A DNA stretch of 64,000 nucleotides from Rothia mucilaginosa (lineage in GTDB: Bacteria; Actinomycetota; Actinomycetes; Actinomycetales; Micrococcaceae), in contig NZ_JVSP01000014.1 in the NCBI RefSeq assembly GCF_001061665.1, positions 62,001 to 126,000 on the forward strand, written 5' to 3'. Numbering within the stretch: position 1 is the stretch's first letter; the number at the start of each line of letters is the position of its first letter. Shown here in pieces: positions 1-51,327 of the stretch. A model generated the notes under the pieces. The model was not told the origin of the DNA. It ran no database searches and saw nothing but the letters and a program-made list of their open reading frames with translations. Position numbers and translations under genes: made by a program.

Positions 1-434
1 GTGCGGCTTGCCGTATCTTCATCCGTGGACTCGCTATACACGACGCTATCAATTGCGCCGATGGGGCAGATCCTCGACCCGCGAACGGGGGTGTGCTGCT
101 CAATACCTTCAGAAGAAATCTTCATGTACGTGGCATTGACGCTCCACAGGTAGAACAAGAGGAAAGCAGTCATGAGTATGGATGCAATGTCTACAAATGA
201 GTTAGTCCCGGGGCCATTGAGCGACAAAAAATAGCAGATAATCGGGAAACCCGGGAAAAAGACAATAATGTACGCCAGCAGCGTTTGCGTACGACTAATG
301 TAGATTCCTTCACGCTTTTTCTTCTCGTCACGGCGCCGATTAACGATGTAGGTGGCCAGGGTGAAAAGCGTGAAAATAGTCGTGATGATGGAGCACGCAC
401 CCCAAAAGGTAATAGCAAATTCTTGAGACATCAT
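1..434 (-). CDS. Membrane protein of unknown function, 3' end beyond the window
   Basis: The reading frame is open from an ATG-ATG pair (434-432 and 431-429) to the left edge, giving at least 144 codons. It begins MMSQEFAITFWGACSII and shows about three hydrophobic segments: residues 8-32, 55-75 (AYIIVFFPGFPIICYFL) and 84-103 (DIASILMTAFLLFYLW). Between the first two is a basic stretch (NRRRDEKKKR), which suggests a cytoplasmic loop. The C-terminal part that is visible looks soluble. An in-frame TAA directly precedes the first ATG, and a GAAGGAG ribosome site lies about 10 bases upstream, so the start is well fixed. I do not recognise the family. A 26-codon reading frame ends right at this start and may be cotranslated with it. 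Confidence 0.75.
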   Translation of the reverse strand, partial: MMSQEFAITFWGACSIITTIFTLFTLATYIVNRRRDEKKKREGIYISRTQTLLAYIIVFFPGFPIICYFLSLNGPGTNSFVDIASILMTAFLLFYLWSVNATYMKISSEGIEQHTPVRGSRICPIGAIDSVVYSESTDEDTASR

Positions 435-515
435 TTAGCTATTCACTCCTTCAGCCGAGTTGGAGTCGGCGATGGTAGCAGAGTACGCTTCTCTGCTTAC
501 TTCAGCTGTGCTCAT
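435..515 (-). CDS. Candidate 26-residue upstream ORF, stop abutting the next start
   Basis: The ORF starts with ATG at 515-513, about 8 bases after an AAGGACG ribosome site, and encodes MSTAEVSREAYSATIADSNS followed by AEGVNS. Its TAA stop (437-435) touches the ATG-ATG start of the downstream membrane protein (TAAATGATG), the arrangement typical of translational coupling. It has no hydrophobic stretch and no recognisable domain. It is probably a leader ORF or a small cytosolic protein; chance is also possible at this length. Confidence 0.4.
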   Translation of the reverse strand: MSTAEVSREAYSATIADSNSAEGVNS

Positions 516-942
516 GGTATGTACGTCCTTGTGCGGTGGTTGGTGAATCGCGCCGGGGTGAGGCGGCGGGTACATCCTTAGCCTATCGCACCGTATCTGA
601 CCAGAAAGTTAACTGAGTGCAAGGCTCGGGTGAAGACTGGGCGACCATTCGTCAGAAGGGCCGGCTCAGCGGCGAATCGGCCCCCGTCGGCGCACGAAAT
701 TCACCCCGCAAAACGCTAGAATCCGGGCCGTACGCGGCGTGTTGACAAACTAATATTTCAGCAAAAATCCCGCCGGAAAAACGCGGACTAGCCCACATGC
801 CCTAAGCCTCAACTAGAAGGTGCACTCTGTACGCAAAAACTTTAACGTTTAACCTCTAGAATAAGAAAAGGTTCAAGGCGCGGCCGCACGCCGTACCAAC
901 ACCGCTCACTCTGCAGAAACACCAACCTTGAAAGGTACAATC
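516..942. other. Intergenic region, divergent promoters expected
   Basis: This 427-bp stretch separates divergently read genes and holds no convincing ORF. A TTGACA hexamer lies at 742-747 and a TAGAAT hexamer at 857-862, but they are not spaced as one promoter. The stretch from about 740 to 870 is more AT-rich than its surroundings. No operator or RNA structure was recognised. Confidence 0.4.
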
Positions 943-1158
943 ATGACCTCCAAGAAGTCCGCACGGCTTACCCGCCGCGCAGCCCTGGCCGCCGCCGGTG
1001 CTGGCGCAGCAACCGCCCTCGGTGCGCTGCTCACCCCCGCGCAGGCCTACTACAACCGACCCACCGTCCGTTACCGCCCGGCCTTCCGCTACACCTACCG
1101 TTACAACCGTTACGGCCGTCGTGAGCGCGTCATCATCGTTGATAACGGCGGTAACTAA
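943..1158 (+). CDS. Small exported Tyr/Arg-rich protein (71 aa)
   Basis: ATG 943 is chosen over the in-frame TTG at 928 because a GAAAGG ribosome site (930-935) fits ATG 943. The protein opens with a twin-arginine-like signal (LTRRAAL, then an Ala/Gly-rich hydrophobic core) and a good signal peptidase site after AQA. The predicted mature part is only 36 residues, with 7 Tyr and 9 Arg in an alternating pattern (FRYTYRYNRYGRR), ending in a hydrophobic VIIV and DNGGN. It is therefore strongly cationic and aromatic. No family is recognised. A hairpin terminator follows at 1206-1235, so it is probably a single-gene transcript. A role at the cell surface, as a cationic peptide or a wall-bound protein, is inference only. 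Confidence 0.7.
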   Translation: MTSKKSARLTRRAALAAAGAGAATALGALLTPAQAYYNRPTVRYRPAFRYTYRYNRYGRRERVIIVDNGGN

Positions 1159-1205
1159 ACCAAACGCCCGACCGGGTTATCCTCGTGTTCGGAACATATA
1201 CTAGG

Positions 1206-1235
1206 AGGCGGTGCCACACACTCGTGGCGCCGCCT
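1206..1235 (+). terminator. Hairpin terminator after the small exported protein
   Basis: AGGCGGTGCCAC (1206-1217) pairs with GTGGCGCCGCCT (1224-1235) around a 6-base loop with one mismatch, followed by a short T run. Confidence 0.7.
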
Positions 1236-1295
1236 TTGGCGTATCGTGCCGTACCCGTCGCGCGGTCCGCCCATCACCACGGATAGAGAGAACCC

Positions 1296-2048
1296 ATGAA
1301 TACGATCAAGCCCCTCACCCGCCGATCCGCCCTCGGCCTGCTCGCAGCAACCGGCGGCGCAACCCTCCTCGCAGCCTGCGGTGCTCAGCCGCAGGCAACC
1401 AGCGGCTCTGCGTCTGCATCCGGTAGCGCATCTGCTTCCGCATCGGCATCCAAGACCGCACGCACCGACTACTCCGGCGTTGCAACCCTCGACGGCTACA
1501 CCTCCAAGCCTGCTGACTACCAGCCTGGAACTCGCACCGAGCCCTCTAAGAACGCGCCCGTGCCCGTGAAGCCCGCCGTTGCCAACGAGAACAGCGTGGA
1601 AGGCCTCTACCAGTCCATCGCGTTCTTCGGTGCCGCCATTGAGTACTACATGCGTACCGGTAAGACCGAGCCCCTGCGTGAATGTGCGGTTGACAACTCC
1701 GAGCTGAAGAACATGCTCGAACCCGAAGAAGGCACCCTGGGTGCTGGTTTGCAGCAGGGCAAGATTTGGATGCAGGACCCGTCCGCCACCATCACCATGC
1801 TTACCGCACAGCCCGAGCGTGATGGCGACGCCTACGACTGGGATATCCGCCTGACCATGGACACCGGCGAGTTCATCGCAAGCAAGGACCGTGTGGAGAA
1901 CGCTACCTCCGATTCGGACCGTAAGAACGATGTGGAGCGCACCCTGCACGGCGTGTACGAGAACGGTGCGTGGAAGCTGACCGGCATGCGCACTTCCTCT
2001 TCCTCTTCGTCTTCTTCCTCTGCTTCCGCTTCGGCTTCTGACTCCTAA
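1296..2048 (+). CDS. Tat/Sec lipoprotein, DUF6318-like
   Basis: The protein has 250 residues. The N-terminus (LTRRSALGLLAATGGA) has a twin-arginine pair, and LLAACG is a clear lipobox, so it should be lipid-anchored on the outer face of the membrane. A low-complexity Ser/Ala linker (SASASGSASASASAS) follows. The globular part begins near residue 55 with the pattern YQPGTRTEPSKNAPVPVKP, then an EGLYQSIAFFGAAIEYYMRTG helix. This resembles the DUF6318 lipoproteins of actinobacteria, which fits by memory of the pattern and not by a search. The C-terminus is a run of about ten serines followed by ASASASDS. The function is unknown. It stands alone between terminators at 1206-1235 and 2089-2128. Confidence 0.75.
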   Translation: MNTIKPLTRRSALGLLAATGGATLLAACGAQPQATSGSASASGSASASASASKTARTDYSGVATLDGYTSKPADYQPGTRTEPSKNAPVPVKPAVANENSVEGLYQSIAFFGAAIEYYMRTGKTEPLRECAVDNSELKNMLEPEEGTLGAGLQQGKIWMQDPSATITMLTAQPERDGDAYDWDIRLTMDTGEFIASKDRVENATSDSDRKNDVERTLHGVYENGAWKLTGMRTSSSSSSSSSASASASDS

Positions 2049-2060
2049 AACTCAAGGGCC

Positions 2061-2128
2061 TAGAAGCGTATAGCTTCTACATCTAAAAGGCGCCCGCCCC
2101 GTGGCTGAAAAACCACGAGGCGGGCGCC
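2061..2128. terminator. Double hairpin, bidirectional terminator
   Basis: A small hairpin (TAGAAGC/GCTTCTA, 2061-2079) precedes a strong one at 2089-2128: GGCGCCCGCC and CGTGG arms pair with CCACG and GGCGGGCGCC. It lies between convergent genes and closely matches the hairpin at 5817-5857 that follows lacZ. Confidence 0.85.
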
Positions 2129-2163
2129 TCTCTCATGTGGTGAAGGACCTACCCTGCTTTTAC

Positions 2164-2630
2164 CTATGCAGAAGCAAGCTTCTCCTCAAGCTCCTTCACA
2201 ATCTTCGCGTGTTCCTTCTCAGAGATAGAAACCTTGAAGAAGAATGCGAGGAACGAGCACACAATAATGGCCAGCGGCACATAGAAAGCAGCCGTGTTGA
2301 ACGTCTGAATGTTCTGCGCGGTGAGGCTATTAGGATCTGCACCGTTAGTCATAGCGGCAGCAACAGCAACCACACCCACGATGCTGTTAGAGAGAGCACC
2401 AGCGATCTTGTCGAGCATCGGACGGACGGACAGGGTAACTGCCTCGTTGCGCTGACCGGTCTTCAGCTGGCCGTACTCAATGGAGTCGGTCAGCGCCAAG
2501 ATAGCGGTCATCTGAATGAAGGTGTTCGGGGTGTAGAACAGGACCAGTGCCACGTAGACCAGAGCCAAGTTCTGCGGGAAAAGAATGAACAGAATGTAGG
2601 CAACAATCATCACGCCTTTCGGCATCCTTA
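2164..2630 (-). pseudogene. C-terminal remnant of a GPH-family (LacS/MelB-like) sugar permease
   Basis: The recognisable protein begins around KGVMIVAYILFILFPQN and runs through LFYTPNTFIQMTAILALTDS and IEYGQLKTGQRNEAVTLSVR to EKLASA, about 155 residues. The motif DSIEYGQLK, the TLSVRP segment and the DKIAGALSN segment are hallmarks of the last four helices of glycoside-pentoside-hexuronide:cation symporters, which are normally about 450-500 residues. Roughly the first two thirds, including helices I-VIII, are absent. The frame stays open upstream to 2715, but that part (SFVRWKTCLPSSRIHLCL) is the reverse complement of the lacZ start region and not permease. The gene is therefore a truncated, non-functional lactose/galactoside transporter that once stood divergent to lacZ. 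Confidence 0.85.
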
Positions 2631-2669
2631 AAGGGACCAAACAAAGATGTATACGAGAGGAAGGAAGAC

Positions 2670-5600
2670 ATGTCTTCCACCGAACAAACGACTCCCGTAG
2701 TCTCCTCCCAGTCACCCTCAGCAGCGTGGCTTGATGACCCCACTGTGTACGCTGTCAACAGGGAGGCAGCGCACTCCGACCATCACTCCTCGAACCCCCA
2801 GCAGAGCCTCAACGGCACGTGGGCTGTCCGCACTGCATGGGCCTCAGAAATTGACGTCACCACCGCAGAATTCGCCGCCCCCGCCCTCGACGAAAGCGAC
2901 TACCAGAGCATCCCCGTCCCCGCCACCCTGGAAACTGAAGGACTCTGGTGCCCCGCCTACGTCAACATCCAGATGCCCTGGGACGGCCACGAAAACCCCG
3001 AAGCTCCTCACATCCCCGAGAAGAACCACGTAGCCCTCTACCGCAAGCACTTCACCCTGGAGAGCGACCTCAAGAAGATGCTGAGCGAATCGGGCCGCAT
3101 CGCGCTCGCCTTCGAAGGCTTCGCAACCGCAATTTACGTGTGGGTTGACGGCACCTTCGTCGGTTACGCAGAAGACGGTTACACCACCACCACCTTCGAC
3201 ATCACCGATATCGTCAGCAAGGACGCAGAAGGCAACCACACCCTGACCGTCGCATGCTACGAATACTCGAGTGCTTCATGGCTGGAAGGCCAGGACTCGT
3301 GGCGTTTCCACGGCCTCTTCCGCGCCGTGAACCTGGTAGCCCGCCCCGCAGTCAGCATCGCCTCCCTCACCGTTGAAGCAGACTACGACGCACCCACCGG
3401 CGAAGCACACCTGGACGCTCTCGTCACCCTCAACGGTGAAGAAATCAAGGCGTACACCCTGCAGGCCAGCGTCCTTGACGGCACCCAGGTCATCTGGTCT
3501 GGTACCGTCGCCGCTGAAGACGCATCCGTGCGCATCTCCTCCGACGCCCTTAAAGGTATCGCTCCCTGGTCGGCCGAATCGCCCTCTCTCTACACTCTGA
3601 CGGTGGACCTGCTCCACGACGGCAAGACCGTAGAATCTACCAGCCAGCGCGTCGGATTCCGTCGCTTCCGCATCGAGAACGGAATCATGACCCTCAACGG
3701 TCACCGAGTCCTCTTCAAGGGTGTCAACCGCCACGAGTTCCACCCGCGTACCGGCCGCGTCCTGACCGTTGAAGACATGACTTCAGAGATTCTCTTCTGC
3801 AAGCAGCACAACATCAACGCTATCCGCACCAGCCACTACCCCAACGATTCACGCTTCTACGCCCTGGCCGACGAATACGGTATCTACCTGGTTGACGAAG
3901 CAAACCTGGAAACTCACGGCTCCTGGTGCACCCCCGGTGACATCCCCACCCCCGAGACCACGATCCCCGGCTCCCGCATGGAATGGGAAGGCGCCTGCGT
4001 TGACCGCGTAGAATCCATGATTCGCCGCGACTACAACCACCCCTCCGTAGTAATCTGGTCGCTCGGTAACGAAGCATACGGCGGCGAAGTATTCCGCTCC
4101 ATGTACCGCCGAGTCCACGAACTGGACCCCAATCGCCCCGTACACTACGAAGGCATCACCTGGCACCGCGAATTTGATGACGTCACCGACATCGAATCCG
4201 GTATGTACACCCACGCTGACGTCGTCGAAAAGTACTTGTCGAACAACCCCCAGAAGCCCTTCATCATGTGCGAATACATGCACGCAATGGGCAACTCGGT
4301 CGGCGCTATCGACGAATACGTCGCACTGGAACGCTACCCCCACTACCAGGGCGGTTTCATCTGGGACATGATTGACCAGGCACTCTGGCACCCCGGTGAG
4401 AGCGAAGGCGCCCCCGAATACCTCGCCTACGGTGGCGCATTCGGCGAACGCCCCTGCGACTACGAATTCTCCGGTGACGGTATCCTCTTCGCCGACCGCA
4501 AGGTAAGCCCCAAGGCCGCTGAAGTGAAGGCAGTGTACTCCAACCTGCGCATCACCCCTGACCAGAAGGGCGTGACGGTCGTCAACGACAACCTCTTCAC
4601 CTCCACCGCAGACTACACCTTCAAGGCTAGCCTGCTGGTCAACGGCGTTCCTCAGTGGCAGGAAGACTACTTCTTCGACGTAGCCCCGGAATCCACCCAC
4701 GAGCTGGCAATTCCCTGGCCCCTGGAAGAATACGCTGCCGACAACGCAGAAGTAACCCTGGACGTCAGCCTCGTGCTCACTGAAGACGCCGCATGGGCTC
4801 CTGCCGGACACGAAATTGCCTTCGGTCAGTACGTCATCCCCGCATCGCAGGCTGAAGCAAACACCGCTGAAGACGCAGCAGATGCGACGGTGACCGTCGG
4901 CCGCTGGAACGTCGGTCTGCGCAACAACCATGCTGAAGTTATTCTGTCCCGCACTCAGGGCGGCATCGTCTCCTGGGTACACAACGGCACCGAGCATGTT
5001 ATTCGCCCCCCGAAGCTCACCACCTTCAGGCCCCTGACCGACAACGACCGCGGCGCCGGACACGGTTTCGAACGCGCCCAGTGGACCGTCGCAGGCCGCT
5101 ACGCCCGTTGCGCTAATGTTGCTGTCGAGCAGCCCAGCGATGACAGCGTGGCAGTGACCTACACCTACGAGCTGGCAACCCCCGCTCACACCGCTGTTAC
5201 GGTCCGCTACGAAGCACAGAGCACCGGCAACGTGCTAGTAACCATCGACTACCCCGGCGAGAAGGACGCACCGTCCCTGCCCGCATTCGGTCTGGAATGG
5301 GCACTGCCCGGCGAGTTCTCGCACCTGCGTTACTACGGCCTCGGCCCCGGCGACTCCTACCCCGACCGTTGCAGCGGTGTCCACCTGGGCGTGTGGGAAA
5401 GCACCCCCGAGCAGGACTACGCACCGTACCTGGTACCTCAGGAAAGCGGTAACCACATGGGTGTCCGTTGGGCTGAAGTAACGAACGACAGCAACCACGG
5501 CTTCCGTGTCCGCCAGCTGCAGACTGCCGGTGAGGGCCTGCACGTATCGCTCCTGCCCTACTCCTCCTACCAGATTGAGGAAGCTTCCTACCAGTGGGAG

Positions 5601-17123: not shown

Positions 17124-18566
17124 ATGAGCGCACAGAGCACCGCCTCCACCCTGCCCCCTCTGGGCACCGGGAAGCACAGCCGATACCTCGGCATCATTGC
17201 ACTCATCGCCACCTTCGGCGGTCTGCTCTTCGGCTACGACACCGGAGTGATCAACGGCGCGCTCGAACCCATGAGCCGCGAACTCGGTATGGACTCCACC
17301 GCCCAAGGCTGGGTCACCGGATCGCTCGCCTTTGCCGCCGCTATTGGCGCACTCGGATGCGGCCGCATCTCTGACCGGTACGGCCGCCGAACCACCATCA
17401 TTGGGCTCTCCACCATCTTCTTCATTGGTGCCCTGACCTGCGTGTTTGCACCCAATGTCGCCGTACTCATCACCGGACGCACCCTGCTCGGCCTGGCGGT
17501 CGGCGGCGCCTCCGCCGTGGTGCCCGTGTTCCTCGCAGAGCTCGCACCCTACGAAATTCGCGGCTCCCTCTCCGGCCGCAACGAGCTCATGGTTGTGGGC
17601 GGTCAGCTTGCCGCGTTCATCGTGAACGCCCTCATCGGCAACGTATGGGGCGAGCACGACGGCGTGTGGCGCTGGATGTTCGCCATCTGCACCCTGCCCG
17701 CCATCGGCCTGTTCGTCGGTATGCTGCGAGTGCCCGAGTCGCCGCGCTGGCTGCTGCGCGTCGGCAAGCGTGAACAGGCGCTTGAGGTGATGAAGCGCAT
17801 CCGCTCCGCCGAGCGTGCCGAAGCTGAGATTGCCGACATTGAACGCACCCTGCAGGCGGAGGCGACCACCCAGAACAATGCGGCGGGTAAGGAAAGCGTG
17901 GGCGTGCGCGGCTGGTTCGTGCGCATCCTGCTCGTCGGTATTCTGGTCGGCGCGGGCCAGCAGCTGACCGGCATCAACTCGATCATGTACTACGGCATTA
18001 AGGTGCTCAAGGAAGCCGGTTTCAGCGAATCCGCGGCGCTCATCGCGAATATTGCGCCGGGTACGATTGCGGTGCTCGGCTCGATCCTGTCGCTGCGCCT
18101 GATGGAGCGCGTGCCGCGCCGCGTCATGGTCATTACCGGCTACAGCTCGACCGCGTTTTTCCACGTGCTGATTGCGGGTGCATCCATGCTGCTGCCCGCC
18201 GATAATGCGGCGCGTCCCTGGATTCTGCTGGTGCTCATCGTCTGCTTTGTGGGCGCGATGCAGACCTGCCTGAACGTGTCGACGTGGGTGATTATGAGTG
18301 AGCTGTTCCCGCTGCGTGTGCGTGCGGCGGGTATGGGTATTTCGGCGTTTAGCGGCTGGATGATGAATGGTGTGCTGTCGCTGGCGTTCCCCGTGATTCT
18401 GGGCGCGGTCGGTCTGACCGGCTCCTTCATCGGCTTTGCCGTGGTGAACGTGGTCATTGCGCTGCTGATGTTCCGCAACCTGCCGGAGACTCGCGGCGTG
18501 AGCCTGGAACAGGTGGAGCGCGGCGTGATGGACGGCAGCGCCTACCCCTCCGCAGGCAAGCGCTAG
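17124..18566 (+). CDS. MFS sugar porter (xylose/inositol/glucose proton symporter type)
   Basis: The protein has 480 residues and twelve membrane segments. Sugar-porter marks are FGYDTGVINGAL in helix 1, GRISDRYGRRTTI between helices 2 and 3, PESPRWLL before the central loop, GQQLTGINSIMYYG in helix 7, and PETRG at the end of helix 12. The GQQLTGIN motif is typical of hexose, xylose or inositol carriers. An AAAGGA ribosome site precedes ATG 17124. The last 16 codons, stop and terminator are repeated at 19136-19249, where they follow a toxin fragment; the gene itself is intact. Confidence 0.92.
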   Translation: MSAQSTASTLPPLGTGKHSRYLGIIALIATFGGLLFGYDTGVINGALEPMSRELGMDSTAQGWVTGSLAFAAAIGALGCGRISDRYGRRTTIIGLSTIFFIGALTCVFAPNVAVLITGRTLLGLAVGGASAVVPVFLAELAPYEIRGSLSGRNELMVVGGQLAAFIVNALIGNVWGEHDGVWRWMFAICTLPAIGLFVGMLRVPESPRWLLRVGKREQALEVMKRIRSAERAEAEIADIERTLQAEATTQNNAAGKESVGVRGWFVRILLVGILVGAGQQLTGINSIMYYGIKVLKEAGFSESAALIANIAPGTIAVLGSILSLRLMERVPRRVMVITGYSSTAFFHVLIAGASMLLPADNAARPWILLVLIVCFVGAMQTCLNVSTWVIMSELFPLRVRAAGMGISAFSGWMMNGVLSLAFPVILGAVGLTGSFIGFAVVNVVIALLMFRNLPETRGVSLEQVERGVMDGSAYPSAGKR

Positions 18567-18632
18567 ATTCGGCGGTTTTTAGGCATGAATGAGGCGGGCG
18601 GCCCCTTCCCGGTGGAGGTGCCGCCCGCCTCG
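18519..18632 (+). repeat. Direct repeat, copy 1: MFS gene 3' end plus terminator
   Basis: This 114-bp segment covers the last codons of the sugar porter, its stop and its hairpin. Copy 2 at 19136-19249 has the same length without gaps, offset exactly 617 bp, with about 7 mismatches (roughly 94% identity). Confidence 0.9.
18591..18631. terminator. Terminator between the sugar porter and antitoxin genes
   Basis: GAGGCGGGCGGC (18591-18602) pairs with GCCGCCCGCCTC (18620-18631), with additional pairing inside. It serves convergent genes. Confidence 0.85.
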
Positions 18633-18649
18633 CAATATGCGTTGAAAGA

Positions 18650-18931
18650 CTAGTCTGCAGGGTTCTCTGCGAGGAACTCGTCGAGCCCGATGCGGTAGCC
18701 GTCATCTTCGGCGCGTGCCTTGCGAAGAGCCTCAATGTCGAGGAGCTCTTCGTACTCTTCCAGCAGCTTCAAATCTTCGTAGGAGATGAGCGCGGCAACA
18801 GTCTTACCATTGCGGCTGATGAGGGGACGTTCGCCGGAGAACACTGCCTCGTTGACTTTGGTTCCGAGGTTGTCGCGGAGTTCTTTAAGAGTCGTGACAT
18901 TGGAACGAGTCCGGTGAGTGGTGACAGTCAT
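18650..18931 (-). CDS. Phd/YefM-family antitoxin
   Basis: The protein has 93 residues. The N-terminal half (TLKELRDNLGTKVNEAVFSG, then ERPLISRNGKTVAALISYED) is the Phd/YefM dimerising and DNA-binding fold; the C-terminal acidic helices (LLEEYEELLDIEALRKARA) should wrap a RelE-type toxin. An AAAGGA site precedes ATG 18931. Such antitoxins repress their own promoter, expected at 18932-18990. The usual toxin gene does not follow on the same strand; a toxin fragment lies upstream on the opposite strand. It may therefore be an orphan antitoxin, able to neutralise a related toxin encoded elsewhere. Confidence 0.9.
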   Translation of the reverse strand: MTVTTHRTRSNVTTLKELRDNLGTKVNEAVFSGERPLISRNGKTVAALISYEDLKLLEEYEELLDIEALRKARAEDDGYRIGLDEFLAENPAD

Positions 18932-18985
18932 GACTGGTTCCTTTCTGGGGTTTGTCCGTTAGCTCCGAGGATAGTTCCTGTGCAG

Positions 18986-19129
18986 GTTCTATTCAAGAAG
19001 CTACAGGGCGAAGAAGGGTACAGGGCACGAGTAGGGAATTACCGCATTCTGTACACCATTGATAACGGTGCGGTTGTTGTTGAGGTCTTCCGAGTTGGTC
19101 ATCGACGCGAAGTCTATCGCGGCCTGTAG
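18986..19129 (+). pseudogene. RelE/ParE-type toxin remnant, N-terminus missing
   Basis: About 47 residues match the C-terminal half of RelE-like toxins: FKKLQGEEGYRARVGNYRIL, then YTIDNGAVVVEVFRVGHRRE and VYRGL. Intact members have about 85-90 residues; the N-terminal helical half is missing. The frame is open back to GTG 18914, but the added residues show no similarity and overlap the antitoxin gene on the other strand, and there is no ribosome site. The fragment is inverted relative to the normal antitoxin-toxin order and ends directly at the second 114-bp repeat. It is probably inactive. Confidence 0.8.
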
Positions 19130-19135
19130 AGTGAA

Positions 19136-19249
19136 CGCGGCGTGATGGACGGTAGCATCTACCCCTCCGCAGGCAAGCGCTAGATTCGGCGGGTTTTAGG
19201 CATGAATGAGGCGGGCGGCACCTCCCCGGTGGAGGCGCCGCCCGCCTCG
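19136..19249 (+). repeat. Direct repeat, copy 2: duplicate MFS 3' end plus terminator
   Basis: It begins a few bases after the toxin fragment's stop and would still encode MDGSIYPSAGKR before the same TAG, but has no gene in front of it. The embedded hairpin is at 19208-19248 (GAGGCGGGCGGC/GCCGCCCGCCTC). Confidence 0.9.
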
Positions 19250-19477
19250 TGCATCCCGTGACCCGCCGCCCCTCGCCCCACCGCACTGTTCGTTGAACGA
19301 GAAGCAAGGAACCCCTACCCTGAAACCTTGCCCGCAAGGTGCTACCTTCAAGAGGGTATTATTGACTTCAAAGTGCCGAAATATATGCTTGACCTGTGCG
19401 AGCACACACCGCGTAGCCACCGGAACGATTCGTCACCCGGTGCAATACACATGACTCTAACGAAATATAGGTGAACC

Positions 19478-20689
19478 ATGACTGAGAACGTACACAACGA
19501 CTGGGACCTCCGAAGCGAAGAGGTCCAGAAGGACCAGGTAGCTGCCTACGACGCAATGCGCCGCCGTTGCCCCGTCGCCCACGACGAATTCATGGGCTAC
19601 TCCGTCTTCAAGAACGCCGATGTACAGCACGTACTCGACCACCCCGAAATCTACTCCAACGTCGTCTCCACCCGCCACATCGCCGTCCCCAACGGCATGG
19701 ACGCCCCTGTGCACACCGCGTTCCGCGCCGTCAACGACAAGTACTTCACCCCCGAGCGCCTCGAAAAGTTCGCACCCGTCATCCGCGAAGCCGTGCAGGG
19801 CCTCATCGCGGACCTTCCTCGCGGCGAAGAGGTAGACGTCATGCAGGGCTTCGGTCAGGCATACGCAATGCGTGTGCAGAACGCCTTCATGGGCTGGCCC
19901 GCATGCCTCGAGCAGCCCCTCACCGAGTGGATTGAAAAGAACCGCGTCGCCACCCTGCGCCGTGACCGCGCAGAAATCGCCAAGGTCGCCCTCGAATTCG
20001 ACGGCTACATCCGCCAGCTGCTCGACGAGCGCCGCGAGGATGCCGCAGCCGGCAAGCCCAAGGACGTCACCGCCGAACTGCTCACCGACATCGTGGACCT
20101 GCCCGGCGAAGAGCCCCGCACCATGACCGACGAAGAGATCGTCAGCCTCATCCGCAACTGGACCGTGGGCGAGCTGTCCACCGTCTCCGCAACCGTGGGT
20201 GTGTTCGTGAACTTCCTGGCACGCAACCGCGCCGAGCAGGACCGCCTGCGCGCATCCCTCGCCGACGGCAACGCCCTGGAAGACTCCAGCGAAATCGCCC
20301 TCGCCGTCGAGGAAATCATGCGACTCGAGGACACCCTCGTCACTAACCGTCGCGTCACCACTCGGGACACCGAACTCGGCGGCCGCACCCTGCCCGCCGG
20401 CTCCCGCGTGACCATCAACTGGGCCAGCGCAAACCGCGACGAGGACGCCTTCGAAGACGCCCTCACCTACAACCCGCACCGCGACCAGTCCCGCAACCTC
20501 GTGTACGGCGACGGCATCCACGTCTGCCCCGGCGCGCCCCTGGCACGCCTGGAGCTGCGCATCCTGCTCGAGGAGCTACTGCGCGGCACCAAGTCGATTG
20601 AGATTGCAGACGAGAGCGAGAAGCCCGCAACCGTGAACGCCGTGTACCCGGTCTCCGGCTACTCGGTTGTGCGCGCCATCTTCAACTAG
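19478..20689 (+). CDS. Cytochrome P450
   Basis: The protein has 403 residues, soluble class. The heme ligand is Cys350 in YGDGIHVCPGAPLARLELRI, with Tyr where Phe is usual. The K-helix ExxR is EEIMR. The I-helix reads NWTVGELSTVSATVG: the acid-alcohol pair normally seen as (D/E)-T is replaced by Leu-Ser, which is unusual for oxygen activation. The gene has an AGGTGA ribosome site, stands alone, and ends with a terminator at 20712-20751. No ferredoxin or reductase is adjacent, so redox partners must come from elsewhere. The substrate is unknown. Confidence 0.93.
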   Translation: MTENVHNDWDLRSEEVQKDQVAAYDAMRRRCPVAHDEFMGYSVFKNADVQHVLDHPEIYSNVVSTRHIAVPNGMDAPVHTAFRAVNDKYFTPERLEKFAPVIREAVQGLIADLPRGEEVDVMQGFGQAYAMRVQNAFMGWPACLEQPLTEWIEKNRVATLRRDRAEIAKVALEFDGYIRQLLDERREDAAAGKPKDVTAELLTDIVDLPGEEPRTMTDEEIVSLIRNWTVGELSTVSATVGVFVNFLARNRAEQDRLRASLADGNALEDSSEIALAVEEIMRLEDTLVTNRRVTTRDTELGGRTLPAGSRVTINWASANRDEDAFEDALTYNPHRDQSRNLVYGDGIHVCPGAPLARLELRILLEELLRGTKSIEIADESEKPATVNAVYPVSGYSVVRAIFN

Positions 20690-25360: not shown

Positions 25361-26746
25361 GTGGCCAGAACCGAATCCAAAACCCCGATTTGGGGCGTTA
25401 TTGCCGTCCTAGCGCTCCTGGCGGTGGGCGCCAATTTCCTGCTCCGAATCCTGAGCGACCCCGCCAGCGGCATGGATTTCTCCATTTACCGCCTGGGCGC
25501 CATGACCATTTTCGATAACGAGGGGTTCACCCAGGACCTGTACTCCCCGACCCTGAACGATCACGGCGTGATTAAGCCGCCGTTCACCTACCCGCCGTTT
25601 GCGGCGATGCTGTTCCTGCCCTTCGCGTTCATGCCCCTGGTCGTCGGTAAGGTGCTCATGGTGCTGGGGTCCGTGGTGGTGGCCTGGTGGCTTTCCACCA
25701 TCATCTACAACTACGTCAATGCGCGCGGTCGCGAACTGCCCCTGCAGCGGTACTTTGGCCGCGTGGGCACTATCGCCGTGCTGACCCTTCTGGTGGTTGC
25801 GGCGGGTCCCTGGCAGCGCACCATCGACCTGATTCAGATCAACCCGTTCATTACCGCGCTGATTCTGGCCGATTTTGTGCGCCCGGCGACCCGCGTGCCG
25901 CGCGGCGTGCTGATCGGCATTGCCGGCGGCGTGAAGCTCACTCCGCTCGTGTTCGGCCTCATCCTGCTGGTGCGCCGCGATTGGAAGGGCATCGTAACCC
26001 TGGGTGCGACCTTCTTCGCCACGATTGCGCTGGGCTTCATTCTGATGCCCAAGGAGGCACCGGAATTTTGGTTCTCGGCGCTGACGAATCCTTCGCGCGT
26101 GGGCGGCCTGAACTATGTGGATAACATTTCGATTCAGGGTTGGCTGTTGCACTTCGGCCTGTCCGAGGGTGCCGCGAAGCCCGTCTACTATGCTCTAGCG
26201 CTCGTGAGCATCGTGCTCACCGCCGGCCTGCTGTACCAGCTGGAACGCCGCGGTGCGGCCCTGGCGCAGGTGGCGGTGACCGCCTCTCTCATGGTGGCGC
26301 TTTCGCCGATTAGCTGGTCGCACCACAACGTGTTGCTGCCCCTGCTGGCGGTTGTGCTGGTGCTGGATGCGTTCCCCACCTACTTCGCCCCGCAGCCGGC
26401 CTGGTTGCGCGTGGGCGCCGCGTGCTTCGCCTGGGTCGCCGTACTGGGCCTGTACATTTCCCCGATGCGTATCGCCTCGTGGATGCACGGCTCCATGGAC
26501 GACATGGAGCACCTGGCCGCCGGTGCGCTGGCGGTGTCGGCGATTCCGGCGTTCTGCCTGTGGGTGACGATGATGCTCTGGTCGGTTGCCGCGCTGAGCG
26601 CCCCGGTGCGCGGCGCGAAGGTTGAGCCCGTGCAGTACGGCTCCGTGCCCAACGATGCACCCCTGGGCTGGTGGGGTGCCCGCGCCCTGGTGACCGGGCG
26701 CGCCGAGTCTGTACGTGCCGCTACCTCCCGGGGGGCAACCGCGTGA
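25361..26746 (+). CDS. GT87-family glycosyltransferase (first of a pair)
   Basis: The protein has 461 residues with about ten membrane segments, the GT-C architecture of polyprenyl-phosphate-mannose-dependent mannosyltransferases (DUF2029, PimE-related). Family blocks are DFSIYRLGAM in the first loop, PPFTYPPFAAMLFLPFAF, IQINPFITALILADFVRPAT, and GVLIGIAGGVKLTPLVFGLI. It would add mannose to a lipid-linked or surface glycan on the outer face of the membrane. GTG start with an AAGGA site. Its stop overlaps the start of a second, similar gene, so the two are translated together. Confidence 0.88.
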   Translation: MARTESKTPIWGVIAVLALLAVGANFLLRILSDPASGMDFSIYRLGAMTIFDNEGFTQDLYSPTLNDHGVIKPPFTYPPFAAMLFLPFAFMPLVVGKVLMVLGSVVVAWWLSTIIYNYVNARGRELPLQRYFGRVGTIAVLTLLVVAAGPWQRTIDLIQINPFITALILADFVRPATRVPRGVLIGIAGGVKLTPLVFGLILLVRRDWKGIVTLGATFFATIALGFILMPKEAPEFWFSALTNPSRVGGLNYVDNISIQGWLLHFGLSEGAAKPVYYALALVSIVLTAGLLYQLERRGAALAQVAVTASLMVALSPISWSHHNVLLPLLAVVLVLDAFPTYFAPQPAWLRVGAACFAWVAVLGLYISPMRIASWMHGSMDDMEHLAAGALAVSAIPAFCLWVTMMLWSVAALSAPVRGAKVEPVQYGSVPNDAPLGWWGARALVTGRAESVRAATSRGATA

Positions 26747-28275
26747 GCCACGCGAAAAACACTGAGAAGAACGCCGAAGATACCGAAAAGAATACCGGGG
26801 CGGTAGCGCCCGCTATCCCGTGGGCCTCGGCCTCCGCAGCTTCCGCCGAGGCTGCCGCGGCTACCGGGTCCGCCCAGGCTGCCGAGCCCGCCGAGCCTAC
26901 CCCGGCCGCGAAGCTGAAGGACCGCCCCGAGGAACCCGGTCACTCCGATGCATCCGAACGCATTCTCAGCCTGCGCGAACGCTTCTTCCGCGGCGGCGAT
27001 ATCTGGGCGCACCTGGTGTTCATCCTGGTGGCCGCCTACGCCCTCAACTACGTCACCCACGCCGCGGCCGACGACATCTACGTCTACCGACTGGGCGCGG
27101 TCTCCCTGGCCGACGGCCCCGACGGACTGCAGCTCTACAACTTCCGCACGCGCGGCCTGCCCTTCACCTACCCGCCGTTTGCGGCCCTGCTCTTCTACCC
27201 GCTCGCGTTCCTCACCGAACCGCAGAGCATGATGCTGATTACCGTCATCATCGGCGTGCTCAGCTACGTATGTGCCTACGCCCTGTACTCCTACGCGCGT
27301 AGCCGCGCCTGGCGTCTGCCCCTGCAGAAGTACCTGAGCTCCTGGGGTATGGTCTCGCTCATGGCGGCCCTCATTTGGGCCTGCGGCCCGTGGCGCCTCA
27401 CCACGCACTTCGGGCAGATTAACGCGATTATCCTCGCCCTAATCCTGGCCGACTTCATGCGCCCGGCCACCCGCGTGCCGCGCGGCGTGCTGCTGGGTAT
27501 TGCCGCCGGCATTAAGCTCACCCCGCTCGCCTTCGGCCTTCTGCTGCTTATGCGTAAGGACTGGAAGGGGCTTATCACCACGGCCCTGAGCTTCGCGGCA
27601 ACCGTGGGTATCGCGTACCTCGTCGTGCCCCAAGAATCGACGATTTACTGGTTCCAGGCGCTGCGCGACACCTCCCGCGTGGGTTGGTTCAGCTACTTCG
27701 ATAACGTGTCTATCATGGGCACCCTCACCCACGCGGGCCTGCAGCACCATCTGACCGTAACCGCCCTGTCGACCGTGCAGGTGGCCCTGACCCTGCTCAT
27801 CGTTCTGGTGACGGCCGTTCTGCTGATCCCGCTGATTCGCGCCCGCGCGGTCGTGTCGCAGCTGGCGCTGACGGCCTTCATGATGCTGCAGATCTCGCCG
27901 ATTAGCTGGTCGCACCACAACACCTGGTACCCGCTGATGCTGGCCGCCGTCGTGGTGGAAATCTTCCCGCTGTTTTACCGGTGGGCAAGCTCGTTCATTG
28001 CGACCCTCGGCGTTATCACGGCGAGCGTGGCGCTGGCGGGCATGTACATTTCCCCGTACTGGATTGTGCTGGCCTTCGCCCCGCACTTCAGCTCGGACAA
28101 CATCCTCATGGTGCCCGAGGGCTCGCTGGGCCTCATGGCGGGCACGTCCCCGTACCAGTTCATGTACGTGTTCACGGTGGTGACCTTCTTCGTGTACCTG
28201 GTACACCGCCAGCAGATTAATCGCGCCGCAGCCCGCGAGGGGGAACGCGTGACTACCCTGGGCGCCGCATACTAG
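26743..28275 (+). CDS. GT87-family glycosyltransferase (second of a pair)
   Basis: The chosen start is GTG 26743, overlapping the upstream stop by 4 bases (GTGA) with a GGGGG run before it; the frame is open further back but inside the first gene. The protein has 510 residues. A hydrophilic Ala/Glu-rich N-terminus of about 75 residues precedes a GT87 core closely matching its neighbour: DIYVYRLGAV, LPFTYPPFAALLFYPLAF, FGQINAIILALILADFMRPA, and GVLLGIAAGIKLTPLAFGLL. It is a tandem paralogue; the divergence suggests two different linkages or acceptors on the same envelope glycolipid. A terminator follows at 28317-28353. Confidence 0.88.
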   Translation: MSHAKNTEKNAEDTEKNTGAVAPAIPWASASAASAEAAAATGSAQAAEPAEPTPAAKLKDRPEEPGHSDASERILSLRERFFRGGDIWAHLVFILVAAYALNYVTHAAADDIYVYRLGAVSLADGPDGLQLYNFRTRGLPFTYPPFAALLFYPLAFLTEPQSMMLITVIIGVLSYVCAYALYSYARSRAWRLPLQKYLSSWGMVSLMAALIWACGPWRLTTHFGQINAIILALILADFMRPATRVPRGVLLGIAAGIKLTPLAFGLLLLMRKDWKGLITTALSFAATVGIAYLVVPQESTIYWFQALRDTSRVGWFSYFDNVSIMGTLTHAGLQHHLTVTALSTVQVALTLLIVLVTAVLLIPLIRARAVVSQLALTAFMMLQISPISWSHHNTWYPLMLAAVVVEIFPLFYRWASSFIATLGVITASVALAGMYISPYWIVLAFAPHFSSDNILMVPEGSLGLMAGTSPYQFMYVFTVVTFFVYLVHRQQINRAAAREGERVTTLGAAY

Positions 28276-42719: not shown

Positions 42720-45700
42720 CTAGCGGTTATTCAGCACACGCACGTTGTAGCGGTGTAGGAACGCCGCCATCGCGCCACGCTCAATCGGCTGAACCGGGCG
42801 GAACGAACCATCCGGCCAACCCGTCGTAATCCGCTGATCGGCCAACCACGCAATCTCGCGGTAGAACTGGCTGCCGGTCGACACGTCGCTAAACGGCGAT
42901 ACCGCAGGAGCCGAATATGCCGGCGAACCCGCGTAACGGTAGAAGAACGCCGCCATCGCGTCACGGTTCACCGCATCATTCGGGCGGAACGTACCGTCAG
43001 ACCAGCCGGTCGTAATGCCGCGGGCGCGCATCCACTCAATCTCCTTGTAGAACGGGTGGTCGCGCGGCACATCCTTGAAGCTCGGGGTGCTCGGCGCGGT
43101 GAACTGCGGCGAACCCGCCATGCGGTAGAAGAACGCCGCCATCGCGCCGCGCTCCACCGAACCATTCGGGCGGAACGTGCCATCCGGGTAGCCGGTCGTA
43201 ATACGACGCTGAGCCAGCCAGTTAATGTCGTTCACGAACGGGTAATCCGCCGGAACATCCTTGAAATGCGCGCTCTCGGCGGGAGCCTCGGAGGACGACG
43301 ACACACGCAGAACCTGCGCACGCTCACCGGCCGCACCGTTCACGCCCGACAGGTCGCCGGTCGCGTTGTGCATGTGCAGGAACAGGGCAGAGCCCTTCGC
43401 CTCACCGCTGCGGTGCGCCACCAGGTTCGTGCCCGGTGCGTCCACGAACAGGTTCGGAACGCCCGCCGAATCGCCGCTGAACCACAGCGCCGGGGTGGCG
43501 TAGTTGAACGACACTGACTCGGTCGTATCCACCACGGTCGTGGCGGAGAACGCGCTCGCGGTGGTCACCGAGTACGAAATCTCGGTTGACTCAGCCTCGG
43601 GGTCCAGGCCCAGAACGCTCAGCGGAACACTCATCACCAGGGTGTTCGAATCCATGATGTTCGTATCGGTATCGCCCCAGGTGCCGTTCAGCGGGTACAG
43701 GGCGTTGGCGATTGCGTGCCACTTGCCGTCCAGGCCGCGCTGCGAAACCTTCACGAGCGGGTAGTCCAGGCCCTTCTCGCGCACCGTCTGCAGGCGGTAA
43801 TCGGTCGTGCCATCCTTATCGGTGTCGATGAAGACGTAGTAGGTGCCGCGCGGGGTCACCTCCGACCAGTTACCCCAGGTCGAAATACCGAAGGACAGCT
43901 GCGCCTGCGAGGTGTCCTGACCGGCAGCCTTCAGCGCCGCCACGTTCGAGGTGGCACCCACGTACTGCAGGTCCATGCGGGAATCCGAACCCACACCCAG
44001 CTTCGCGGTCGGGATGCGCGGGCTCGAAGCACCCAGCTCGAAGGCACCCAGCAGGGAGCGGTAACCGCCCTGATTCACGGCGGTGCCCTCAACGGACAGG
44101 CGCTGCTCCAACGCACCGGCGCCGTTCGAATCGAAGTGGATATCCGCACCGGCCACGCGCAGCGCGCTCACCGGCTTCGGGGCCACGTGCAGGGGCATAC
44201 GCAGGGTCTTCACCGCGGCCGAGGAATCAGCATCGGTCAGGATCAGGCGGCCCGAGGCGCTCGCAATGTACTGGCGGGCACCCGAAATGGTCACCATGCC
44301 GGTCGAGTAGTTCAGCGAATCCTGGGTCGGGTACATCGAGGGGTCGATGGTCTTCTCAAGCTTCGACGGGTCGATGCGCACCGTCACGGTGAACGTGGCG
44401 GTCTGGCCGGCACCCACAGACACCGACTGCGGGTAGGAGAACTCCACACCCGGGATGCTCGTGCTGCCGTCGTAAGATACGGCGTAGGTGTGCGCCACCG
44501 AATCGGTGTTCTCAACGCTCACACGGTGCTGCAGGGTCTGCACGCCGGCGTTCGGGGTGTACTCAACCACGCCGAAGGTATCCGAAACCTGCTCGGGGCG
44601 GGCGGCGTTGAACAGCATCACGCGGTCGGCCACCGCCGCACGCGTGTTGATGCGGCCGGTACCCACGCGGTCCACCGCGTAGGGGTTGCCCCAGGCATCC
44701 TGCATGCGGTGGTCGGCGGTGTTCATGATGGCGGTCTTAATCATGCGCGGGCCGTACTCCGGGTGCGCCTGCATAATCAGCGCCGCAACACCCGCCACGA
44801 ACGGCGTGGACATGGACGTACCGGTCTTTACGGTTGCCTCGGTACCGCCGCCAACCAGGATCGAGGAAATGTTCGTGCCCGGTGCCGCAACGTCCGGCTT
44901 CGTGATGCCGTGCGAGCCGTGCATACCGCGCGCGGTCGAGGTGTTCGCCTGATCCAGCTTGCCGTTCTGCACGCGAATCGACTCGCGCAGGTTCTCGCCG
45001 AGCTGCAGGGTCAGGTTGCCCGAATCAATCTGGGAGGAGAGGCGCTCCACCTGGCTCTTGGCCAGACGCACGCCCGGAATAGCGGAGTTGCCGCCGATGG
45101 CGGTGTCGCCCACCTCCGTGTCGGAGGCGATGACCACGCCGGTCGCGCCGGCAGCCTGCAGGTTATCGAAGCGCACGCGCGAACCGCAGGGGGCGGTGCC
45201 GTCGGCCTCAGCCCAGTCGATGAGGGCCCACTTGCCCTTCAGCGCCGCGGCCTCCTCCTCGGTGAAGGCCTCGCACGCGTAGCGGTTGCGGGTTGCGGCA
45301 CGCACCACGGTGCCGCGCAGCTGCTCCTCGGTCGCCTTCGAGTAGTCGAAGCTCACCGAGTAGTCGCCGTAGGTGTCCGCCTCGTTCGCGGGGGAGAGAA
45401 TCTTCACGCGATCCGCCATCTGGGTCGAACCAATCGAGTTCGCCACGGTCAGGCTGTAGGCGCTGGTGCCGGGGCCGCCCGAGTTGGAGTAGGTGTCACC
45501 CACGGCGTTGTAGTTGTTGGCGTTACCCGCCGCAACCACGGAGAGGATGCCCTCGCGGTAGAGGGAACCGACCGCGTAGTTCACGGTCTCGTCGAACACG
45601 CCGAACTCGTTGCCCAGCGACAGGTTCGCGATGTCGGCGCGGTCGGAGAAGTCGCCGTCATCGTTGGGATCGAGCACGCGGTCAAGGCCCAGGGGGACAA

Positions 45701-46757
45701 ACGCGGTGGTGCCCTTACAACCGAAGATGCGCAGGCCAATCAGCTGAGCCTCCGGTGCGGAGCCCGGGCCGATCTTCATGTCCTTGAGCTGCTCCTCGGT
45801 GAGCTTGGAGTAGTCGCCGCGGAAGGTCGAGCCATCCGCGTTCACGCCGTAGCCCGCCGCGGTACCGGCCACATGGCTACCGTGGCCGCCGCAGTCCAGC
45901 GGGTTCGCGTCCGGGTGGGGAGTGGAAGTCTCCTTCTTAGCGGAGTTGTAGTCGTCACCGACCAGGTCGTAGCCGCCCAGGAACTTCTTCGGGTCGTAGG
46001 TGCCCTCGGGAATCGTGTCGGAGGCTTTTGCCTTCTCGTAGGCCTCCTTAGTGCCGGGGCCGCCCAAATCGGCGTGAGTGTAGTCGATGCCGGTATCGAG
46101 CACCACAATCTTCACGCCCTTACCGGTGTAGCCGGTGGAGGCGGTGTTCTGCGCGTGCTGCTGAGCCCACACGGAGAGCGTGTCGGTATCGAGCACGGAA
46201 CCGGTGTTCTGCGGCGCCATGTCCTCAATGATGCTGATGCGCTCAACATCGGAACGGTTCGCCAGCGCGCGAATCTGCTCGACGTTACCGTAGAGCGCCA
46301 CGCCGCGCATCGTGTTGTGGGTGGTGTACAGAACCTGCGCGCCGGATTCCTTCGCGGCGGAGGCGCCCTGCTGCTGCACGCTGGCGCGGATTGCCTGCAC
46401 CTGTGCTTGCGCGTTTACGGGGGCCTGCGCGCGGGAGCGGACCGCATCCGGCTGGGTCTGCGCGTACGCACCCTGACCCTTGAAGCGCACGAACACGGCG
46501 CGTTCGCCGGTTGCGCCGTCCAGGCTGGGGGAGAGCACCTCGGTCGGGTTCGGCGTCTCGGCGGATGCGCTACGCGGCGCATCCACGTCACCGCGCACCA
46601 CGCCGGGTGCGGCGTACGCCTGGGTTCCGAAGGGTAGGGAAGTCAGCCCGAGGGTCAGGCCCAGCACTAGGGCGCCACAGCCGCGGGCTACGCGCCGAAG
46701 TCCTCGCGGTGGCCGCGAACCCTTCGGAGCGGGGGTAGCTTCAGGGAGAATAGCCAC
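42720..46757 (-). CDS. Secreted S8 subtilase with PA domain and three SLH repeats (copy 1)
   Basis: GTG 46757 follows AAGGAG. The protein has 1345 residues. Order: signal peptide (about 1-50), I9-type propeptide (about 85-180, ending near SDVERISII), S8 domain with Asp221 (VVLDTGIDYTHAD), His292 (GGHGSHVAGT) and Ser in GTSMSTPFVAG near residue 650, interrupted by a PA insertion (GSRVRFDNLQAAGATGVVIA). Fn3-like and beta-rich modules follow, with a calcium-type DTDKDGTTD stretch, then three SLH repeats (about 1165-1340; each has ITTGYPDGTFRP or ITTGWxDGxFRP). It should be a surface-bound protease acting on host or microbial proteins. It is the last of three paralogous genes in tandem. Confidence 0.95.
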   Translation of the reverse strand: MAILPEATPAPKGSRPPRGLRRVARGCGALVLGLTLGLTSLPFGTQAYAAPGVVRGDVDAPRSASAETPNPTEVLSPSLDGATGERAVFVRFKGQGAYAQTQPDAVRSRAQAPVNAQAQVQAIRASVQQQGASAAKESGAQVLYTTHNTMRGVALYGNVEQIRALANRSDVERISIIEDMAPQNTGSVLDTDTLSVWAQQHAQNTASTGYTGKGVKIVVLDTGIDYTHADLGGPGTKEAYEKAKASDTIPEGTYDPKKFLGGYDLVGDDYNSAKKETSTPHPDANPLDCGGHGSHVAGTAAGYGVNADGSTFRGDYSKLTEEQLKDMKIGPGSAPEAQLIGLRIFGCKGTTAFVPLGLDRVLDPNDDGDFSDRADIANLSLGNEFGVFDETVNYAVGSLYREGILSVVAAGNANNYNAVGDTYSNSGGPGTSAYSLTVANSIGSTQMADRVKILSPANEADTYGDYSVSFDYSKATEEQLRGTVVRAATRNRYACEAFTEEEAAALKGKWALIDWAEADGTAPCGSRVRFDNLQAAGATGVVIASDTEVGDTAIGGNSAIPGVRLAKSQVERLSSQIDSGNLTLQLGENLRESIRVQNGKLDQANTSTARGMHGSHGITKPDVAAPGTNISSILVGGGTEATVKTGTSMSTPFVAGVAALIMQAHPEYGPRMIKTAIMNTADHRMQDAWGNPYAVDRVGTGRINTRAAVADRVMLFNAARPEQVSDTFGVVEYTPNAGVQTLQHRVSVENTDSVAHTYAVSYDGSTSIPGVEFSYPQSVSVGAGQTATFTVTVRIDPSKLEKTIDPSMYPTQDSLNYSTGMVTISGARQYIASASGRLILTDADSSAAVKTLRMPLHVAPKPVSALRVAGADIHFDSNGAGALEQRLSVEGTAVNQGGYRSLLGAFELGASSPRIPTAKLGVGSDSRMDLQYVGATSNVAALKAAGQDTSQAQLSFGISTWGNWSEVTPRGTYYVFIDTDKDGTTDYRLQTVREKGLDYPLVKVSQRGLDGKWHAIANALYPLNGTWGDTDTNIMDSNTLVMSVPLSVLGLDPEAESTEISYSVTTASAFSATTVVDTTESVSFNYATPALWFSGDSAGVPNLFVDAPGTNLVAHRSGEAKGSALFLHMHNATGDLSGVNGAAGERAQVLRVSSSSEAPAESAHFKDVPADYPFVNDINWLAQRRITTGYPDGTFRPNGSVERGAMAAFFYRMAGSPQFTAPSTPSFKDVPRDHPFYKEIEWMRARGITTGWSDGTFRPNDAVNRDAMAAFFYRYAGSPAYSAPAVSPFSDVSTGSQFYREIAWLADQRITTGWPDGSFRPVQPIERGAMAAFLHRYNVRVLNNR

Positions 46758-47094
46758 TGGATGCTCCTTGATTCTCTTGTAATGGTGTGTTTCTAGGGGT
46801 CTTCGGCCCGTGCTTCAACGACGGGGTTCAAGCGGGCGCTGAAAGAACCCTCACCATTGTCTCAAGGAGATGGGTGTTTAACCTAGTCAGACTCGTGAAA
46901 CACCGCGGTGCGGAACGTAACAACGGCGAGGGGGCCGTACCGGGCAGCATTGCTGCACGCGGTACGACCCCCTCGCCCTTGACCAGAATCAGCCGTGACC
47001 GGAACCAGCCGTGACTCACCGGCACCTCAGCCGGGGCGGCATCCCGGCCCACGCGGTGAGCCGGTCAGCCAGTCAGCCGGTCAGCCGGGCCTCA
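46758..47094. other. Intergenic region between subtilase copies 1 and 2
   Basis: It contains the copy-2 terminator at 46925-46977 and, to its left, the presumed promoter of copy 1 (46780-46920). No ORF with a ribosome site was seen. Confidence 0.45.
46925..46977 (-). terminator. Long terminator hairpin after subtilase copy 2
   Basis: GGCGAGGGGGCCGTACC with GCAGC pairs with GCTGC and GGTACGACCCCCTCGCC, a stem of over 20 bp with minor mismatches. Confidence 0.85.
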
Positions 47095-51081: not shown

Positions 51082-51263
51082 GGAATCCTCCTTCGGATTT
51101 TCTATTTTTCGATAGTGCTGTGTGCTCTGTGGTTGTGTATCGGTGATGCGCGGAGGCGGCCCCACCGGCAGACGACGAGTGAGTGCATCCGCCGGTGAAA
51201 CCGCCACCAAAACTTGAGAGGTTCCGGGATTTTCAGGCCCCGGACCCTGCCGGTTCCAGGTAT

Positions 51264-51293
51264 CCCTCCCACCCCATGCAGGAGGTGGGAGGG
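51264..51293 (-). terminator. Terminator of subtilase copy 3
   Basis: CCCTCCCACC pairs with GGTGGGAGGG around 10 bases, about 35 bp after the stop of the minus-strand gene. Confidence 0.75.
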
Positions 51294-51327
51294 GGACCCG
51301 AACCATTCGCTACCGGTTAGCTACCGT

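Follow-up and report, generated by a model that had tools for sequence, protein, structure and literature searches.

A probably decayed head-to-head Phd/YefM-RelE toxin-antitoxin pair between hairpin repeats in Rothia mucilaginosa

Introduction

The type II toxin-antitoxin (TA) systems of Escherichia coli, whether in canonical or reverse gene order, are described in passages of PMC7167474 as bicistronic operons. The nearest described relatives of the locus reported here are the YefM-YoeB and Phd-RelE operons, which combine the families PF02604 and PF05016. The Rothia locus shares both families with them, together with the small size and, in intact relatives, a palindrome with a TGTACA core; passages of PMC3303803 give TGTACA as the operator core of E. 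coli yefM/yoeB. Unlike in these operons, the two Rothia genes are on opposite strands, head to head; the window (the whole stretch of 64,000 nucleotides of R. mucilaginosa DNA that was analysed) also has a truncated toxin and no operator palindrome.

Two other described systems offer partial parallels, one of them from the ccd families, which differ from Phd/RelE. Like the Rothia locus, the ccdO157 pair is an islet by itself and degenerates among related strains, and chromosomal anti-addiction antitoxins have been proposed to protect against related toxins (passages of PMC2654758). The Rothia locus is unlike ccdO157 in having flanking repeats that stem from the tail of the upstream gene, and a toxin tail that differs purely synonymously between two species. 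The relBE modules of Acinetobacter plasmids are also small TA cassettes between repeats, found in one of two almost identical plasmids (parts of PMC7885321). Their pdif repeats are XerC/XerD sites shared by many plasmid modules, whereas the Rothia repeats are 117 nt long, derive from a chromosomal gene and occur at one locus.

Head-to-head type II protein pairs were not found in titles, abstract openings and passages of the open-licence papers searched, nor in passages of PMC7157771, PMC4803016, PMC5812544, PMC9424990, PMC2701414 and PMC10135026; titles and abstract openings likewise yielded nothing on a TA pair in R. mucilaginosa. TAfinder 2.0, which accompanies TADB 3.0, requires both TA genes on one strand (parts of PMC10767807), and would therefore overlook head-to-head pairs.

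The toxin-antitoxin remnant and its flanking repeats

The locus lies between a sugar porter gene and a cytochrome P450 gene and contains the following features, in window coordinates:

17124..18566, plus strand: sugar porter (MFS), whose last codons open repeat 1 (PF00083, E 1.6e-102)
18516-18632, plus strand: repeat 1, the porter 3' end, stop and hairpin (self-comparison and folding)
18650..18931, minus strand: phd/yefM antitoxin, 93 aa, full length (PF02604, E 3.4e-11)
18980..19129, plus strand: truncated relE, with homology from 18993 and a possible 49-aa ORF from a GTG at 18980, a guessed start (profile search and alignment)
18992..18993, strand not applicable: deletion scar, where 263 bp present in the relative G013 are missing (alignment)
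19133-19249, plus strand: repeat 2, the second copy of the porter 3' end and hairpin (self-comparison and folding)
19478..20689, plus strand: cytochrome P450, the right-hand flank (family search)

The antitoxin scores above the cutoffs of both PF02604 (43.2 bits against 29.8) and TIGR01552 (25.6 against 20.8). The plus-strand ORF ending at 19129 matches the 89-position ParE_toxin profile at positions 54-89 only, and the window toxin is therefore N-terminally truncated. The initial annotation, made from the sequence of the window, had placed a whole Phd/YefM gene on the minus strand and an N-terminally truncated RelE on the plus strand between two repeats, and both profiles bear this out. The toxin stop, which it had described as touching the second repeat, lies 3 bp upstream of repeat 2, which begins at 19133. 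Consensus scans detected no promoter upstream of the window phd or at the truncated toxin, and no recombinase was seen among the ORFs between the repeats (from the ORF list; the Pfam search covered the two TA ORFs). The frame of the toxin remnant is open for 178 codons (18593-19129, plus strand), antisense across the whole of phd, in the window and in the relative G014 alike.

Direct repeats stand at both borders of the TA remnant, and one of them is the porter's own 3' end; repeat 2 is therefore the copy. The two are 117 nt long, 93% identical and gap-free at a spacing of 617 bp; the initial annotation had reported the same spacing, with a length of 114 bp and about 94% identity. Their top 100-nt match, from 18519, has 94/100 identities, the highest in the window at spacings of 100-3000; three triplet-shuffled control windows reached a maximum of 52-53/100. 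In its own genome the repeat stretch matches this locus alone at E 1e-3, two extra hits being the repeat's palindrome on the opposite strand. A generic terminator found at many loci, raised in the initial annotation as an objection to its own reading, was rejected: the repeat occupies a single own-genome locus, and the unrelated hairpin beside a second pair, in the genome G016, flanks only that TA pair (35 Rothia genomes, E 1e-3). As single-stranded sequences the hairpins of repeats 1 and 2 fold well (z -4.9 and -6.5, respectively), but in neither repeat of the window did the terminator scan report one with a T-run; the terminators of the initial annotation are thus putative.

Elsewhere in the window, outside the TA locus, a direct repeat of 210 nt with 72% identity and a spacing of 1580 occupies 25805-27594. 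On the minus strand at 42720-55368, three paralogous ORFs of 1345-1403 aa stand in tandem; each combines a subtilase with a PA domain and three stretches of S-layer homology. In the middle ORF the PA domain is below cutoff, and repeats are in register between the ORFs.

The same site in related genomes

After a search of 35 Rothia genomes, the site was read in six informative ones, window included; of the other 29, three (G002, G016 and G022) have a Phd relative, each elsewhere. The close group compared comprised four genomes, one per species. The P450 gene downstream of the site is also present in G001, G006, G013, G014 and G027.

The site occurs in four states: an intact pair in G013, a truncated one in the window and G014, an antitoxin piece in G001 and G006, and none in G027. 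In G013 the order is repeat 1, phd on the minus strand, a full relE on the plus strand, repeat 2, about 1.5 kb of cargo, a third hairpin copy and the P450 flank, and the toxin spans positions 1-89 of the 89-position profile. G014 has repeat 1, phd, a toxin truncated exactly as in the window and the P450 flank, but no repeat 2; any trace of that repeat is at most a doubtful, gapped resemblance over about 30 bp that the repeat finder did not report. G027 has the porter, one damaged hairpin and the P450 gene, with no TA gene, an empty site with one repeat of the kind that the initial annotation had proposed to look for. G001 and G006 retain a C-terminal piece of the antitoxin (41 and 51 codons, 77% and 71% identical) at the same site and on the same strand; no toxin was seen at the site in either, and no direct repeat of at least 25 nt. 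These pieces could be a retained mini-antitoxin or plain decay.

The relatives thus do not all share one arrangement; a uniform arrangement is what the initial annotation had counted against its own reading. The intact copy in G013 and the phd piece in more distant species argue that, across these six genomes, the pair is old at the porter-P450 site and decayed along different routes. The differing states also speak against a precise, excisable 617-bp cassette, as first proposed: the repeats do not delimit an exact mobile unit of that size, because G014 has the pair without repeat 2 and G013 has a third hairpin and extra cargo.

The G013 cargo (L053) contains two ORFs, a lipoprotein-like one of 402 aa and, upstream of it, a small one; Pfam gave no match for either. 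The 402-aa ORF has a low GC content (0.46) and relatives in five other Rothia genomes at 21-34% identity, the one in G006 lying about 23 kb from the porter. The short ORFs that follow the porter in G001 (L057) and G006 (L056) differ from each other by 4 nonsynonymous and 2 synonymous changes.

The left half of repeat 2 of the window resembles G013 repeat 2. Its right half resembles the third hairpin of G013 together with the P450 flank, and carries the hairpin allele of that third copy and of the only copy in G014. Either a G013-like ancestor dropped the extra cargo by hairpin-hairpin recombination, or cargo later split the corresponding hairpin in G013; under both options the hairpins would be the sites of change. 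Across the species the hairpin alleles are shuffled. The repeats may be insertion scars that were later used for deletion.

A shared 263-bp deletion

The window and G014 have an identical deletion junction relative to G013, with 263 bp lost. The deletion took most of the phd-relE intergenic DNA, the palindrome AAAAAGTGTACACTTTTT and the N-terminal half of the toxin, and the remaining window spacer contains no palindrome of at least 8 bp. The window toxin has probably been disarmed in this way, with the whole antitoxin kept.

Head-to-head orientation and the operator palindrome

The TA genes lie on opposite strands in the window, G013, G014 and G016. G016 holds a second intact phd/relE pair, head to head, at a different locus, between two genes that we take, by reading, to be dcd and a MauE-like gene. 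The full-length toxins of G013 and G016 score above the PF05016 cutoff and just below that of TIGR02385. Between phd and relE, G013 has a perfect TGTACA-core palindrome and G016 has AGTGTACACT; the palindromes measure 18 bp and 10 bp, respectively, both contain GTGTACAC, and both are missing from the window. A TGTACA-core operator palindrome also occurs in G002, whose pair is canonical. Consensus scans detected no promoter between G013 phd and relE. The hairpins of G013 repeats 1 and 2 were flagged as terminator-like toward phd and relE, a weak signal of 4 sites against 1.3 expected by chance.

Same-strand order prevails among the RelE loci surveyed. The loci from RelE searches were classified with a broad Phd profile, weaker matches without loci being excluded. 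In the RelE family survey (104 of 395 genomes matching), 25 of the 30 loci handed back have the antitoxin upstream on the same strand, two are intact head-to-head pairs (G013 and G016), two are truncated (window and G014), and one is partnerless at a contig edge; the script label 'convergent' for the window and G014 loci came from the long open frame overlapping phd. The RelE order survey (52 of 396 genomes matching) gave 30 loci, three already in the family set, and all 27 new ones are same-strand, one being labelled 'downstream' owing to an extended frame. Both surveys combined give a same-strand partner at 52 of 57 distinct RelE loci. A phylum-wide Phd search matched 3 of 396 genomes, window included, the other two being same-strand pairs. 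Counted by eye, 32 Phd places comprise 19 same-strand pairs, two intact head-to-head pairs, two truncated ones, two remnants and seven without an adjacent RelE row. Among these seven, G170 has a weaker same-strand RelE, none was found in G288, G022, G168 and G057, and two are without a locus. The first, narrow profiles agree with this Phd-RelE neighbour count.

The inverted order had been called abnormal. It is indeed rare by these counts, but it is intact in G013 and is not a rearrangement specific to one genome. The orientation is not confined to the porter-P450 site, since G016 has an intact pair in the same order at another locus, and the opposite strands do not reflect local scrambling. 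Trees, for which the program warns of long branches, group G013 with G016 (RelE support 94/85; Phd 84/73, with G022 beside them). They give moderate support to a single origin of the head-to-head order, against which stands the G022 Phd, clustering with G013 and G016 yet with no RelE neighbour found.

The second locus is also flanked by hairpins. The left hairpin of G016 has one more copy, 80% identical, to the right of the pair, and none elsewhere in 35 Rothia genomes at E 1e-3 save its palindrome read backwards. These repeats are unrelated in sequence to those of the window locus, so that head-to-head pairs at two loci are each bracketed by hairpin repeats specific to their own site. The dcd and MauE-like genes lie close together in several related species, and no copy of the G016 hairpin was found in the upstream stretch of eight of these (in G023 the stretch is still inside dcd).

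Selection on the toxin stump

The 132-nt toxin tail differs between the window and G014 at 8 positions, all third-position and synonymous; the chance of 8/8 in a neutral stretch is P 2e-5 to 8e-5, depending on transition bias. The 44-residue toxin tail is identical in three species. Phd differs between the window and G014 by 6 synonymous and 0 nonsynonymous changes, and the spacer at 2 of 63 positions (P 0.04 to 0.0001, assuming a divergence of 10-20%); two 150-bp windows at 19200-19499, mostly the gap between repeat 2 and the P450 gene, are 60-77% identical to G013 and G014. For the TA block the synonymous to nonsynonymous counts are 14:0, compared with 108:38 for the porter and P450 genes taken together (Fisher P 0.04). 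These comparisons suggest that the toxin stump may still be under selection. A single-sequence model of the possible 49-aa ORF shows an all-beta fold (pLDDT 81, pTM 0.52), and the junction codons of this ORF contain one non-synonymous change.

Among the window, G013 and G014, dS is 0.046-0.095 for Phd against 0.133-0.218 for porter and P450. The possibility that the TA block was recently imported from another species, considered in view of the low Phd dS, was rejected: with 8 synonymous differences between the window and G014 across the 132 nt of the toxin tail, the block as a whole does not look young.

Proposed history and alternative explanations

The locus is best explained, with reasonable though incomplete confidence, as a decayed, divergently oriented Phd/YefM-RelE pair, with a toxin truncated by deletion, a whole antitoxin and repeats left as scars; as such it agrees with the earlier description as a TA remnant, the pair being intact in G013 and its toxin truncated in the window. 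An ancestor shared by several Rothia species would have received the pair between the sugar porter and the P450 gene. In G013, where the pair is intact, a Phd/RelE complex is predicted to repress both promoters from the region of the TGTACA-core palindrome. One 263-bp deletion would then have removed the palindrome stretch and the toxin's N-terminal half in the window and G014, and the antitoxin left in the window may, as an orphan, protect against intact copies carried by related strains. The direct repeats would be locus-specific duplications of porter tail and hairpin from the insertion history, between which hairpin-hairpin recombination could delete or swap the intervening DNA, as the differing states of the relatives suggest. 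Two observations count against this explanation: the exclusively synonymous changes in the tail are unexpected for a simply dead toxin, and the scans detected no promoter between the G013 genes or upstream of phd in the window. A former repeat 2 in G014 would depend on that doubtful gapped resemblance of about 30 bp.

The synonymous tail is also what would favour a truncated toxin that is alive, an unlikely reading in which a RelE core of about 49 aa is made and selected together with Phd, for instance as a co-repressor or antitoxin sink. The 8/8 synonymous changes, the tail of 44 residues common to three species, the low spacer divergence (2/63) and the all-beta model (pLDDT 81, pTM 0.52) would all fit it; yet the pattern comes from three sequences, full-length alleles could have brought in synonymous variants by recombination, the junction codons hold a non-synonymous change, the start codon is guessed and no promoter was found. 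Slightly less probable again is a broader proposal, that Rothia has a class of head-to-head type II TA pairs inserting between duplicated hairpins, and that in two species a deletion made a selected antitoxin plus mini-RelE whose toxin core of about 45 residues would have a new, non-toxic role.

Other explanations concern the repeats. An old tandem duplication of porter tail and hairpin, which later took up unrelated cargo and in which the orientation is an accident of rearrangement, is a minority possibility that we would not dismiss lightly: the two repeats have diverged by 7%, the species show shuffled alleles of the hairpin, and G013 has a second, unrelated cargo between hairpin copies. 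Its claim about orientation, and that half alone, is contradicted by the same order with an operator-like palindrome, intact elsewhere in G016. That the 617-bp unit could move or be excised as a cassette, docking at a gene's 3' end by repeat recombination, we consider very doubtful. Locus-specific direct repeats do surround both the window pair and the intact G016 pair, G027 has a single hairpin and no pair, and a parallel is known in TA genes flanked by pdif sites (parts of PMC7885321). However, the repeats differ between the window and G016 loci and hence are not element ends, no recombinase was seen among the ORFs between them (one might act in trans), the pair occurs without repeat 2 in G014, and a phd piece occurs without repeats in G001 and G006. 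Relatives of the Phd protein were also absent at E 1e-5 from 72,556 plasmid and 50,697 phage records, and the phage records gave no DNA match; the single viral contig returned has the usual same-strand TA order.

Significance

If the intact pairs work, toxin and antitoxin would be made from two promoters with no shared operon transcript, and it could then be tested how an excess of antitoxin is maintained. At the porter-P450 site, TA decay can be followed as a natural series, with the toxin probably disarmed and the antitoxin retained.
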